Shown: positions 41,607-46,547 of the stretch, one piece after another
Layout of the letters: each line of letters opens with the position of its first letter
Numbering within the stretch: position 1 is the first letter of the stretch
Origin: Chthonomonadaceae bacterium
GTDB taxonomy: Bacteria > Armatimonadota > Chthonomonadetes > Chthonomonadales > Chthonomonadaceae
Assembly (NCBI GenBank): GCA_025054835.1
Contig: JANWZQ010000185.1
Location: 1-46,923 of the forward strand
DNA: 46,923 bases
Direction: 5' to 3'
Notes under the pieces: model-generated
Told to the model about the DNA's origin: nothing
The model's database searches: none
What the model saw: only the letters and a program-made list of their open reading frames with translations
Translations under genes and position numbers: made by a program

Positions 41607-42125
41607 TTACAGGTTCTTGAAGTCTGTGACAGAGCGTTGGAACGGGAAGACCTGCAGCCCGGTAGTATGCAGGTAGGCGATGGCTCGTTGAACATCGATG
41701 AGAGGCCCGGACAGTGTGATCTCCAACCACCCTCCTTCCTCATCGTCGAAAGCGGCTCGATCAATCACGTAGACTACGTTGAAGTCCTTGCCAACACGAT
41801 GCAGAACCGGCGCACGCGCCTGTTGCGCGCCCACAGCGGTGAGACGCAAAGCGATGGAGCTCGCCCGATCCATTTCATCCTCCGGTGCGGCCACAGGGAC
41901 TGGTTCGCTCTGCCCTCCCATCAGGCCCATCGCGCGCAGATACTGTGCGGCCTGCCCCACCTCCGGAGTAGCGCCCTCCAGATCCAGCAACATGTAGCCG
42001 AAATCTTCCGTAACACGCGCACGTCGCAGATGCGGGATCACATTGAACAGGCGACTGAGACGCCAGAGGATTGGCAGACGAACCTGATTCTGACGGGCGT
42101 GGATCTCCACTGTCTGTACAGCCAT
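41607..42125 (-). CDS. tandem NIL-domain protein
   Basis: This 172-residue protein carries two NIL-like ferredoxin folds. The first is at about 3-70 ('QTVEIHARQNQVRLPILWRLSRLFNVIPHLRRARVTEDFGYMLLDLEGATPEVGQAAQYLRAMGL'). The second is at about 90-162 ('ALRLTAVGAQQARAPVLHRVGKDFNVVYVIDRAAFDDEEGGWLEITLSGPLIDVQRAIAYLHTTGL'). NIL domains occur in the methionine importer ATPase MetN and in the methanogen homocysteine system. AGGAGG at 42138-42143 lies 12 bases before ATG 42125. The frame is open to 42278 and would add a CxxC-x8-C-x5-C segment. It is the third gene of the T-box cluster. Confidence 0.72.
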   Translation of the reverse strand: MAVQTVEIHARQNQVRLPILWRLSRLFNVIPHLRRARVTEDFGYMLLDLEGATPEVGQAAQYLRAMGLMGGQSEPVPVAAPEDEMDRASSIALRLTAVGAQQARAPVLHRVGKDFNVVYVIDRAAFDDEEGGWLEITLSGPLIDVQRAIAYLHTTGLQVFPFQRSVTDFKNL

Positions 42126-42290
42126 GCGAGAGCGCATCCTCCTGGAAGCGAGATACGTTCTTTCGGTGACCGGATCTGCGTCCTGCCGCACCAGACAAAC
42201 ATGGTGGCCAGGACACGGCCAGCGTTGCCCTGATGTGCAGCGCTGGCAGGGTATGGCAGCCCGGGTCAACCGCTTCACATTGTACCCGCT

Positions 42291-42566
42291 CTAGCCTCCT
42301 GCAATTGCCGGGACGATGGAAACCGTATCCCCGTCCTTGAGCGTGGTCTCCTTCCCCTGCAAGAAGCGAATGTCTTCCTCGTTCACGTACACATTGATGA
42401 ACTTACGCAACGCGCCCTGCTCATCCGTCAGACGTGCGGCAATTCCCGGGAAATGGGTATCCAGTGCGGTAATCAGGGCGCCAATGGTGTCCGCATCCAC
42501 CTGTACCGTCTCCTGATCATTGGTGAATTTACGCAGGGGCGTGGGAATAAGTACCGTCACTGCCAT
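42291..42566 (-). CDS. MoaD/ThiS-like sulfur carrier protein
   Basis: This 91-residue beta-grasp protein ends in Gly-Gly ('[11 protein letters not shown]'), the tail that is adenylated and thiocarboxylated in MoaD, ThiS and CysO. The fold is supported by '[44 protein letters not shown]' and '[29 protein letters not shown]'. AGGAGG precedes the ATG at 42566. It begins 69 bp after the thrC-like stop on the same strand. The lack of molybdopterin or thiamine genes, and the PLP enzyme partner, suggest a role in amino-acid sulfur transfer, as with CysO-CysM. The activating E1 enzyme must be elsewhere. Confidence 0.9.
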
Positions 42567-42635: not shown

Positions 42636-43892
42636 CTATGCGGTAACGGTCTCCAGCAGGCGCTCAGTGCGCAACGCCGCATCGAGTGACTCCAGGTTTG
42701 GCGCAATAGGGAACGTCGCTCCCAGTTTGCCCAGCACCACTTCCTGCGTCTTCAAGCCATTTCCGGTGATTGCGATCACAACCGTATCGTCCGGATTGAA
42801 GCGTCCCTGTGCGGCCAGTTTCCGGGTGACTGCAACCGTGACTCCCCCGGCTGTTTCCGTGAAGATGCCCTCGGTACGTCCCAGCAGTCGAATGCCATCG
42901 ATCACTTCCTCGTCGGACACGTCCTCGGCCCACCCGCCGGATTTGCGCACCGTATCGATCGCCACGTAGCCATCCGCCGGGTTGCCAATGGCGATGGAAC
43001 GTGCGATCGTGCAGGGCTTCTGCGGGCGGAACACTTCCGCGCCCGTCTTGATCGCTGTGGTGATTGGCGAACATCCGGTAGCCTGCGCGGCGTACATGCG
43101 CGTCGGTACACCATTCTCCAGAAGCCCCAGCCTGTCCAGTTCCTTCAAACCCTTGTAGATCTTGCTGATCAGGGATCCGCCGGCACACGGCACGATCACA
43201 TGGTCCGGCGCTCTCCATCCCAGCTGTTCGGCAATCTCATAGCCGAACGTTTTGGAGCCATCCCCGTAGAACGGGCGCAGGTTGATGTTCACAAACGCCC
43301 ATCCGTAACGATCCTGTGCTTCCGCGCAGAGGCGATTGACTTCATCGTAGCACCCGGATACGGTCAGCACATTGGTACCGTAGATCAGTGTGCCGAGGAT
43401 CTTGCCCTGCTCGAGATCCGCAGGGATGAAGACGTAGGATCGGAAGCCTCCTTCCGCTGCGTGGGCTGCCACGGAGTTCGCCAGGTTACCCGTCGAGGCG
43501 CATGCCACCGTGTTGTAGCCAAACTCACGTGCTTTGGTCAACGCACAGGCCACAACGCGATCCTTGAACGACAGGGTGGGGTGATTGACTGCATCATTCT
43601 TGATGTACAGGTTGTTCAGACCCAGCTCCCGTCCCAGGCGCTCTGCTTTCACCAGAGGAGTGAACCCCACATTGCGCCCGACGGTCGGGGGGCCTTCTAC
43701 CGGAAGCAAGTCCCAGTAGCGCCACATGGACGGAGGTCCCTGCTGGATCCGTTCGCGCGTGACACGGGGTGCGATCTCTTCCCAGTTAAGGATCACCTCC
43801 AGAGGACCAAAGCAGAGCTCACAGACATGAACAGGAGCGATAGGGTACTCTTCGCCGCACTCGCGGCAGCGCATTCCGAGTGCTTTCGGCAT
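42636..43892 (-). CDS. thrC: threonine synthase-like PLP enzyme with N-terminal zinc ribbon
   Basis: This 418-residue fold-type II PLP enzyme has an N-terminal zinc ribbon (CRECG...CELC, about 9-27). The PLP lysine lies in 'NHPTLSFKDRVVACA', the phosphate cup in 'ASTGNLANSVAAHA', and 'VPCAGGSLISKIYKGLKELDRLGLLENGVP' and 'TETAGGVTVAV' follow. By family it would make threonine from O-phosphohomoserine. Beside a MoaD-like carrier, a NIL protein and a T-box reading AUG, it could instead sulfhydrylate O-phosphohomoserine to homocysteine. GGAGGA sets ATG 43892. Sequence alone cannot separate the two reactions; no other thrC is visible here. Confidence 0.9.
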   Translation of the reverse strand: MPKALGMRCRECGEEYPIAPVHVCELCFGPLEVILNWEEIAPRVTRERIQQGPPSMWRYWDLLPVEGPPTVGRNVGFTPLVKAERLGRELGLNNLYIKNDAVNHPTLSFKDRVVACALTKAREFGYNTVACASTGNLANSVAAHAAEGGFRSYVFIPADLEQGKILGTLIYGTNVLTVSGCYDEVNRLCAEAQDRYGWAFVNINLRPFYGDGSKTFGYEIAEQLGWRAPDHVIVPCAGGSLISKIYKGLKELDRLGLLENGVPTRMYAAQATGCSPITTAIKTGAEVFRPQKPCTIARSIAIGNPADGYVAIDTVRKSGGWAEDVSDEEVIDGIRLLGRTEGIFTETAGGVTVAVTRKLAAQGRFNPDDTVVIAITGNGLKTQEVVLGKLGATFPIAPNLESLDAALRTERLLETVTA

Positions 43893-44004
43893 GACACGTT
43901 CCTCCGAAACCATCAATGGTCGTCCGACTGCAGGATTATGACGTTCATGGCCGAAGGGCATTGCGGGCTGATGTTTTCTGCCAGTTTGTACAGGCTGCAC
44001 AATC

Positions 44005-44055
44005 AAAAAGCCCCTCGTACCATGCATGACAGAGCGATGCACAGGACGAGAGGCT
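44005..44055 (-). terminator. T-box attenuator terminator
   Basis: On the minus strand, AGCCTCTCGT (44055-44046) pairs with ACGAGGGGCT (44018-44009), with one G-U pair and a structured loop, followed by a T-run (44009-44005). It lies 113 bp before the thrC-like ATG, the usual place for a T-box-controlled intrinsic terminator. Confidence 0.85.
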
Positions 44056-44379
44056 GAAAAGTCGCCTTCGTGGTTCCACCTGGCTTCGCCGTACCCTCAC
44101 GGGTTACGGCCTCAGCGGGTGCGACAATTGCCGTAGCAACGTGACACCCTAACCCTGTAACGGGAGCCCCCCGGCGTCCCTTACTCGACAGGATCAGACG
44201 CATCGGTTCTGATCCACCTTTCGGGGGCGCGGCTCAAAGGCCATTTCGGCAGGTACGCAGATACCGGCTTTCACCTGACCCGGCTCTCTGTGATCGCGCC
44301 GCCTGCTTACTCCACCTTCTCGACGCCTTTAGAGCGTGGCATGCCTACGTTTGCACGGCATGCCACCATGCACATGTTG
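44005..44379 (-). promoter_or_regulatory. T-box riboswitch leader, specifier probably AUG (Met)
   Basis: The minus-strand leader contains the conserved T-box AGGTGGAACCACG (44081-44069) and the terminator above. Stem I folds cleanly: base GCTC-t-AAAGGC (44335-44325) with GCCTTTGAGC (44241-44232); S-turn AGTA (44311-44308) opposite GAA (44247-44245); helix GCAGG/CCTGC; distal AGAGAG-CCGG...GGTG...CCGG. Between GAA and the base helix lie only A-T-G (44244-44242), followed by a purine. The specifier is therefore AUG; a one-base shift would give UGG. No threonine codon fits. GGATCAGA/TCTGATCC (44214-44192) is a further stem. Uncharged tRNA would turn on the cluster. Confidence 0.85.
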
Positions 44380-44385
44380 TGTAGG

Positions 44386-44414
44386 ATTATACACATACCG
44401 GTACAACCTGTCAA
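44386..44414 (-). promoter_or_regulatory. consensus sigma70 promoter of the T-box cluster
   Basis: On the minus strand, TTGACA (44409-44414) and TATAAT (44386-44391) are both perfect and spaced by 17 bp. Initiation near 44379 gives a leader that begins just before Stem I. A constitutive, strong promoter fits control by attenuation rather than by a repressor. Confidence 0.85.
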
Positions 44415-44870: not shown

Positions 44871-46547
44871 TCAGGGTTCTCGCAGCGTCACGGTACGATT
44901 GACCGGCAACGCAGCATGAACCGATACGGCTCCGGAGGGCCACCGTACGCGCACAGTCGCGGATCGTACCTGCCCTATCCCCACATGCACGCGCGCATCC
45001 GAAGCGGACATGTAGGAGCCGTCAGTCGTGCAATGCCGTAGAAGCCTCTTCCCCTCCAGCTCAACGGTCACGAGCGCACCGATGCCCATACGATTGCTCT
45101 TCCGCCCTTCCAGACGCAGTGAAAGCCAGTTGCCAGTCTCCGGGCTTTCATTGTGCATCAATAACGGCTCACCCTCACTGTCCACAACCAGCACATCAAC
45201 CCGGCCGTCGTTATCGTAATCGCCCACAGCCAGCCCACGCCCCACAAAGGCGTTTGGCCCCCCGAACTCCAGGCGGGACGTTAGATCCTCGTAACGCTGG
45301 CCCTCCCTGTTGCGGAACAACTGAACTGGCTGGCGATAGGTCAAACCCTTGTCGATCTCGTTGATGTTGTCCTGCACGTGCCCGTTGGCAAACATCAGGT
45401 CGAGGAAGCCATCGTTGTCCATGTCAAAGAACTTGACACCGAAGGCCACATAGGGGAAAGCCGGCGCCGCCACTCCCAAAGCCTTCGACATGTCCTTGAA
45501 AAGGGACTCTCCTTCACTCCGATAGATGTTTTTGACCTCATTCTGGAAGGTTGCCACCACCAGATCGAGCCTGCCGTCATTATCGTAGTCACCCCAGTCG
45601 ATCCCCATCCCTCCGTGTACAGAGCCATCGTCATCGAAGGCAGTACCGGATTCGGGGCCAATATTATCAAAGTACCTGCCACGATTGGCCAGCAGGTCTC
45701 CCGGCACTTCGTCATTGGCAATGGCGATACTCTGTCTCCCCGAGCCATCAAAGTCAGCGGCAGCAACGCCCAGCGCTTTGCCGGAGACCCTGTGCGCTTT
45801 CCACAGACGGGTCACGTCCTGAAATCGGCCATTGCCTAGATTACGGTACAGCACGCCACGCTCGGGGAAATAGAAACGGGGACCGCAGGAGCTGAGGATC
45901 CCGGAGAAATCACAGAGTTGTGGTTTGGTCCTGGGACCAAATACCACATAATTTCCAATGTAGAGATCGAGCCGACCGTCGCTGTCAATATCTGTGAAAG
46001 AGCAGGAAGTGCCCCACGGCTGAGACGCGATCCCGGCCTGACGTGTTACCTCGCGGAACCTTTTCCCGGCTTCGTTGTGCAACAGCGCGCCACCCCGGTA
46101 AGCAGAGAGGTACACATCGGCATAACCATCGTTATCGTAGTCACCAACAGCACAGCCCAGGAAGTTTCCTCTGAGCGTAGCCACTCCTGTTGCCTGCGAT
46201 ACGTCGGTGAAATGGCCACGCCCGTCCCCGCGGTACAGTGCGACACGTGGCCCAACCAGCAAGATATCGAGATTCCCGTCTTTGTCGAAGTCGAGGAAAG
46301 CAGCTCCGTTGCCAATGGTTTGCAGGATGTTGAGCGGACGCTTGCCTGTAACTTCCCAGCGGTAATTCAGTCCTGCTTCCCGGGCGCGATTGACGAAGAG
46401 GGGCGGGTTACGTTCCGCATAAGAATGGCTTTGCTGTACCGAAGCCGGCACCGCGGCGGTCGCGTTCCCGGAATGACCACGACACCCGACCAGTGTCCCG
46501 GCCATTGCCGGTCCTCCCAGAACTGCAAGCACCAGGAGCCTTCTCAT
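44871..46547 (-). CDS. CRTAC/ASPIC-UnbV FG-GAP repeat lipoprotein
   Basis: This 558-residue protein begins with a lipoprotein signal (MRRLLVLAVLGGPAMAGTLVGC, C22 in the lipobox). Several FG-GAP/VCBS beta-propeller blades with calcium-type loops follow ('AAFLDFDKDGNLDILLVG', 'VGDYDNDGYADVYLSAY', 'FTDIDSDGRLDLYIGNY', 'WGDYDNDGRLDLVVATF', 'FFDMDNDGFLDLMFANG', 'VGDYDNDGRVDVLVV'). The end is an ASPIC/UnbV domain ('NRMGIGALVTVELEGKRLLRHCTTDGSYMSASDARVHVGIGQ'). Such proteins are commonly paired with TPR proteins, as here, where the starts and stops overlap by ATGA. Function is unknown; extracellular adhesion or assembly is plausible. Confidence 0.9.
   Translation of the reverse strand: MRRLLVLAVLGGPAMAGTLVGCRGHSGNATAAVPASVQQSHSYAERNPPLFVNRAREAGLNYRWEVTGKRPLNILQTIGNGAAFLDFDKDGNLDILLVGPRVALYRGDGRGHFTDVSQATGVATLRGNFLGCAVGDYDNDGYADVYLSAYRGGALLHNEAGKRFREVTRQAGIASQPWGTSCSFTDIDSDGRLDLYIGNYVVFGPRTKPQLCDFSGILSSCGPRFYFPERGVLYRNLGNGRFQDVTRLWKAHRVSGKALGVAAADFDGSGRQSIAIANDEVPGDLLANRGRYFDNIGPESGTAFDDDGSVHGGMGIDWGDYDNDGRLDLVVATFQNEVKNIYRSEGESLFKDMSKALGVAAPAFPYVAFGVKFFDMDNDGFLDLMFANGHVQDNINEIDKGLTYRQPVQLFRNREGQRYEDLTSRLEFGGPNAFVGRGLAVGDYDNDGRVDVLVVDSEGEPLLMHNESPETGNWLSLRLEGRKSNRMGIGALVTVELEGKRLLRHCTTDGSYMSASDARVHVGIGQVRSATVRVRWPSGAVSVHAALPVNRTVTLREP

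Follow-up and report, generated by a model that had tools for sequence, protein, structure and literature searches.

The window analysed here, a stretch of 46,923 nucleotides from a Chthonomonadaceae bacterium, carries on its minus strand a predicted promoter, a T-box leader and a cluster of three genes, which are listed below in 5' to 3' order of that strand.

44386..44414, minus strand: promoter, predicted by reading the sequence, with TTGACA (44414-44409), a 17-nt spacer and TATAAT (44391-44386)
44039..44332, minus strand: T-box leader, a full-length covariance-model match to RF00230, with homologues in the corresponding position in Armatimonadota relatives
44237..44318, minus strand: Stem I, with the specifier loop between the helices AAGG/CCUU and GCAGG/CCUGC, whose pairing is conserved among leaders
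44242..44244, minus strand: specifier codon AUG (Met), with G as the next base (44241), from the Rfam alignment and 27/27 distinct leaders (collected as described below)
44075..44078, minus strand: T-box bulge UGGA, predicted partner of the tRNA acceptor end, with the variable residue A at 44075, from the sequence and the Rfam alignment
44005..44055, minus strand: intrinsic terminator hairpin with a U run at its end (-27.5 kcal/mol)
42636..43892, minus strand: ThrC-like PLP enzyme of 418 aa with TIGR00260/PF00291 matches, proposed to be a MetM-type homocysteine synthase
42291..42566, minus strand: MoaD/ThiS-like sulfur carrier of 91 aa with C-terminal GG (PF02597, 1.3e-18)
41607..42278, minus strand: NIL-domain protein, start codon uncertain (PF09383, 7.9e-16)

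The initial annotation of this DNA had described a T-box within 44232-44335, and this span encloses Stem I of the leader on the minus strand. The RF00230 model was matched along its entire length (1-219 of 219) at 44332-44039 with 81.3 bits and an E-value of 5.9e-18, short of the curated gathering score (93); a default Rfam scan, which applies the gathering score, therefore returned nothing, and the T-box emerged only when an E-value threshold was used. The leaders of two relatives (loci L055 and L057) exceed the gathering score. Promoter, antiterminator and terminator were all found at the leader. As read from the sequence, both boxes of the predicted promoter are perfect sigma-70 consensus, and the 5' arm of the terminator includes the 3' strand of the antiterminator, so the two folds are mutually exclusive. 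A terminator hairpin of comparable kind was found in 18 of 19 leaders. Between the promoter and Stem I lies a ten-base perfect inverted repeat (44336-44366). A 5' hairpin before Stem I is strong in this leader and in those of L047 and L049, and weak or absent in most others; the hairpins of L047 and L049 at the same place have unrelated sequence, and the candidate of a conserved 5' hairpin was dropped. Farther upstream, 44871-46547 of the minus strand encodes an FG-GAP repeat protein with an ASPIC/UnbV domain.

The specifier codon is AUG (Met). Between the GCAGG/CCUGC and AAGG/CCUU helices, the specifier loop has C-GAA-AUG-G (44248-44241) on its 3' side, and the Rfam alignment also puts AUG in the specifier column. 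The spacing from GAA to the codon is one base shorter in this leader than in the consensus, and UGG arises as an alternative frame because of this missing base: UGG is read when counting from GAA with consensus spacing, and AUG when counting from the helix. A tRNA-Trp-responsive T-box would follow from the first count. The same frame, however, holds UGA in nine of the 27 distinct leaders and UGU in another; the G73 of tRNA-Trp does not pair with the bulge A, and there is no Trp gene nearby. The homologous leaders thus exclude UGG as the specifier, and we give a Trp-responsive leader next to no probability. All of the 27 leaders, which lie upstream of the same gene in Armatimonadota and were collected with a pattern containing ATG, carry AUG, with varying flanking bases and helices; a second count, which relied on the flanking helix and motifs alone and made no assumption of AUG, returned this codon and no other. 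The canonical spacing is seen in several leaders (GAA-A-AUG or GAA-C-AUG), and the base after the codon is G in 17, A in nine and U in one. The pairs of the lower helix are kept in 18-19 of 19 leaders, and each position shows several types of pair; in this comparison, L055 is to be discounted on the 5' side, as its row was parsed at a wrong GAGTA. A genome scan gave three T-boxes in this genome, and the other two carry CUC before ilvB and GUC before valS; the register used for AUG thus gives the expected amino acid at both. The initial annotation had chosen AUG on the rule of a purine after the codon, which was right (G follows here), and the alignment with T-boxes of related genomes that it had proposed returned AUG in every homologous leader, ACC in none and no conserved UGG frame. 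Close relatives of the ThrC-like gene come from genomes named as Chthonomonadaceae and other Armatimonadetes; where the upstream sequence is long enough, the leader is nearly always there, with Stem I, AUG, terminator and antiterminator kept across genomes of 74-86% protein identity. In 17 Armatimonadota loci that are more distantly related, no T-box was found ahead of the gene.

A T-box responding to threonine before an ordinary threonine synthase would agree with the automatic gene label. The 418-aa protein scores 274.4 bits against TIGR00260 (thrC), above the cut-off of 167.1, and a U73 able to pair with the A of UGGA is present in each of the genome's three tRNA-Thr. No leader, however, carries a Thr codon (ACN) at the specifier position, nor is there one in the specifier loop of this leader, and a Thr specifier was rejected on the homologous leaders. 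The genome, moreover, encodes a second, canonical ThrC, which also passes TIGR00260, so that this profile cannot tell the two paralogues (36% identical) apart; a separate, shorter canonical ThrC was found in 10/10 genomes tested. Elsewhere, the same cluster stands under SAM-I riboswitches, which were detected upstream in eight of the 26 loci tested from other phyla (Methylomirabilota, Deltaproteobacteria and Zetaproteobacteria), which also argues against threonine. We therefore regard a Thr-responsive leader as very improbable. As to the gene itself, a Shine-Dalgarno GGAGG (43905-43901) precedes the start of the 418-aa frame; the longest mechanical ORF (42636-44042, 468 aa, GTG) reaches back into the T-box terminator, and the likely real start is the ATG at 43892.

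The neighborhood of the ThrC-like gene is well conserved. A MoaD/ThiS-like gene adjoins it in 79 of 80 loci from many phyla, the one exception being cut off by the edge of its contig. A NIL-domain gene follows the ThrC-like gene or lies close by in 19 of 20 Armatimonadota loci and in over half of the others. Among the 10 genomes tested, metH is present in all, metA was detected in none and metX was absent from nine; this genome has metH, and neither metA nor metX was detected. The paralogue count, the MoaD/NIL neighbors, the SAM-I riboswitches elsewhere and the gaps of metA and metX beside metH are together indicative of a MetM-type, O-phosphohomoserine-dependent homocysteine synthase; the "threonine synthase" gene probably makes homocysteine for methionine. 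The initial annotation had doubted that the first gene simply made threonine, and the second ThrC, the neighbors, the SAM-I riboswitches and the pathway gaps bear this doubt out. The conflict that it saw between RNA and gene is one between the RNA and an automatic gene label, and the label is misleading. An O-acetylhomoserine sulfhydrylase-type gene (TIGR01326) is likewise present in the genome, between ilvC and leuA in the ilvB cluster with the Leu T-box (L207:1398-2714, contig C49 of this assembly). Because of this gene another homocysteine route is possible, and the MetM route may not be the sole one in this genome.

In the MetM/MetO system of Streptomyces, as the work of Hasebe et al. (2024; doi 10.1128/aem.01247-24) is described in PMC12172450, a ThrC homologue converts O-phosphohomoserine to homocysteine, and metM of S. 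albulus is cited there as having an upstream SAM riboswitch. A methionine T-box on a ThrC-like gene makes sense because the gene resembles MetM/MetO. A caution for this reading is that a cyanobacterial homologue acted mainly as threonine synthase and deaminase in vitro (PMC12172450). On the RNA elements, the AUG conservation, the gene context and the pathway gaps observed here, we consider it very probable that a tRNA-Met-responsive T-box attenuator controls a homocysteine-forming (MetM/MetO-type) methionine operon; tRNA binding, switching and the enzyme reaction are the steps that we infer. Transcription would start after the promoter at 44386. With tRNA-Met charged, the terminator (44055-44005) would fold and RNA polymerase would stop. 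When methionine is short, the CAU anticodon of uncharged tRNA-Met would pair with the AUG specifier, and the T-box bulge would bind the free CCA end of the same tRNA, whereby the antiterminator would form, the terminator would be avoided and the thrC-like, moaD-like and NIL genes would be transcribed. The enzyme would then form homocysteine from O-phosphohomoserine, with the MoaD-like protein supplying the sulfur as a thiocarboxylate, and MetH would methylate the homocysteine.

The bulge, on which the initial annotation was silent, raises a question that it missed, namely a mismatch between UGGA and the discriminators of tRNA-Met. The last base of UGGN usually pairs with tRNA base 73, a majority trend with known exceptions (PMC7778990). 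Of the 27 leaders, 13 have A and another 13 have U as the variable residue, one has G, and UGGA is the bulge of most Chthonomonadaceae leaders, including this one. The Met tRNAs are missing from this assembly, and the discriminator comparison thus rests on relatives. The only tRNA-CAU of the genome, called tRNA-Met by ARAGORN, was not used as such; with its acceptor GGGCCCA, it resembles a tRNA-Ile2. The elongator tRNA-Met has A73 in every relative examined, and the initiator tRNA-fMet of relatives has an unpaired U72 or G72 and C73 (Armatimonadota loci L162, L166, L161, L181, L182 and L349). The usual bacterial initiator ends in A72-A73, and such U72/G72-C73 ends would be unusual for bacteria. 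Judged by these tRNAs of relatives, UGGA pairs with neither elongator A73 nor initiator C73. A tRNA-CAU with U73, sought among the 44 tRNAs of one genome (G009), was not found there. In the leader of a one-contig, 3.44-Mb relative (L292 of G042), the bulge UGGG is able to pair five bases with the initiator end UCCCA. In the same genomes, every Leu or Val T-box has the bulge UGGU, matching A73; as these T-boxes obey the rule, the mismatch is specific to the Met leaders, mostly those of Chthonomonadaceae.

Conceivably, the same operon could respond to initiator tRNA-fMet instead of elongator tRNA-Met. The met leader of S. aureus prefers the initiator tRNA (PMC3771891), and the UGGG of G042 fits the C73 of its initiator and not the A73 of its elongator. 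The 13 UGGU leaders, in contrast, fit elongator A73, UGGA fits neither tRNA, and a C73 initiator occurs in both UGGU and UGGA genomes, so that bulge and initiator do not covary; we hold this ligand to be possible, though unlikely. A T-box decaying in Chthonomonadaceae, which no longer senses charging at the acceptor end, would account for the discriminator mismatch in most leaders of the family and for a relative (G102, locus L309) without a detectable T-box, yet the maintenance of terminator, antiterminator, Stem I and AUG across the 74-86% identity range makes decay quite improbable. With the methionine T-box attenuator retained as our reading, a relaxed need for the discriminator pair and initiator recognition with an A-C mismatch are both possible. 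That these leaders form a methionine T-box lineage which recognizes the acceptor end without discriminator pairing, or has shifted to an unusual initiator tRNA with unpaired U72 and C73, is a doubtful proposal; if the shift to the initiator were true, charging of the translation initiator would control homocysteine synthesis.

Methionine T-boxes and MetM are each known already, and the open-licence literature searched contained no case of the two combined in Armatimonadota. The leader offers independent, RNA-based evidence that a widespread "threonine synthase" beside a MoaD-like protein is a methionine enzyme, which would add Armatimonadota and many uncultured phyla to the range of the recently described MetM route. 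Depending on the phylum, a T-box or a SAM-I riboswitch, two RNA sensors unrelated to each other, lies ahead of this cluster. A specifier codon can correct automatic annotation.

With the methionine-class T-boxes (S. aureus metICFE-mdh and the met genes of Lactobacillales), this leader shares the AUG specifier in Stem I, the Stem II region, the UGGN antiterminator bulge, the competing intrinsic terminator and, judging from gene context, methionine genes downstream. It differs from them in its Armatimonadota host, in the MetM-type cluster that it would control, and in a bulge A that pairs with no tRNA-Met discriminator found in relatives. Likened by gene context to MetM/MetO as described in PMC12172450, the cluster has in common a ThrC-like enzyme adjoining a MoaD/ThiS-like sulfur carrier and RNA control linked to methionine; as far as that description goes, it differs in having a T-box in place of the SAM riboswitch and a NIL-domain gene that follows. 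The enzyme belongs to the same PLP fold family as ThrC (TIGR00260) and scores above the family cut-off, whereas it is a second paralogue with an N-terminal Cys-rich extension, only 36% identical to the canonical ThrC of its genome, and has the regulation and the partners of a methionine enzyme.
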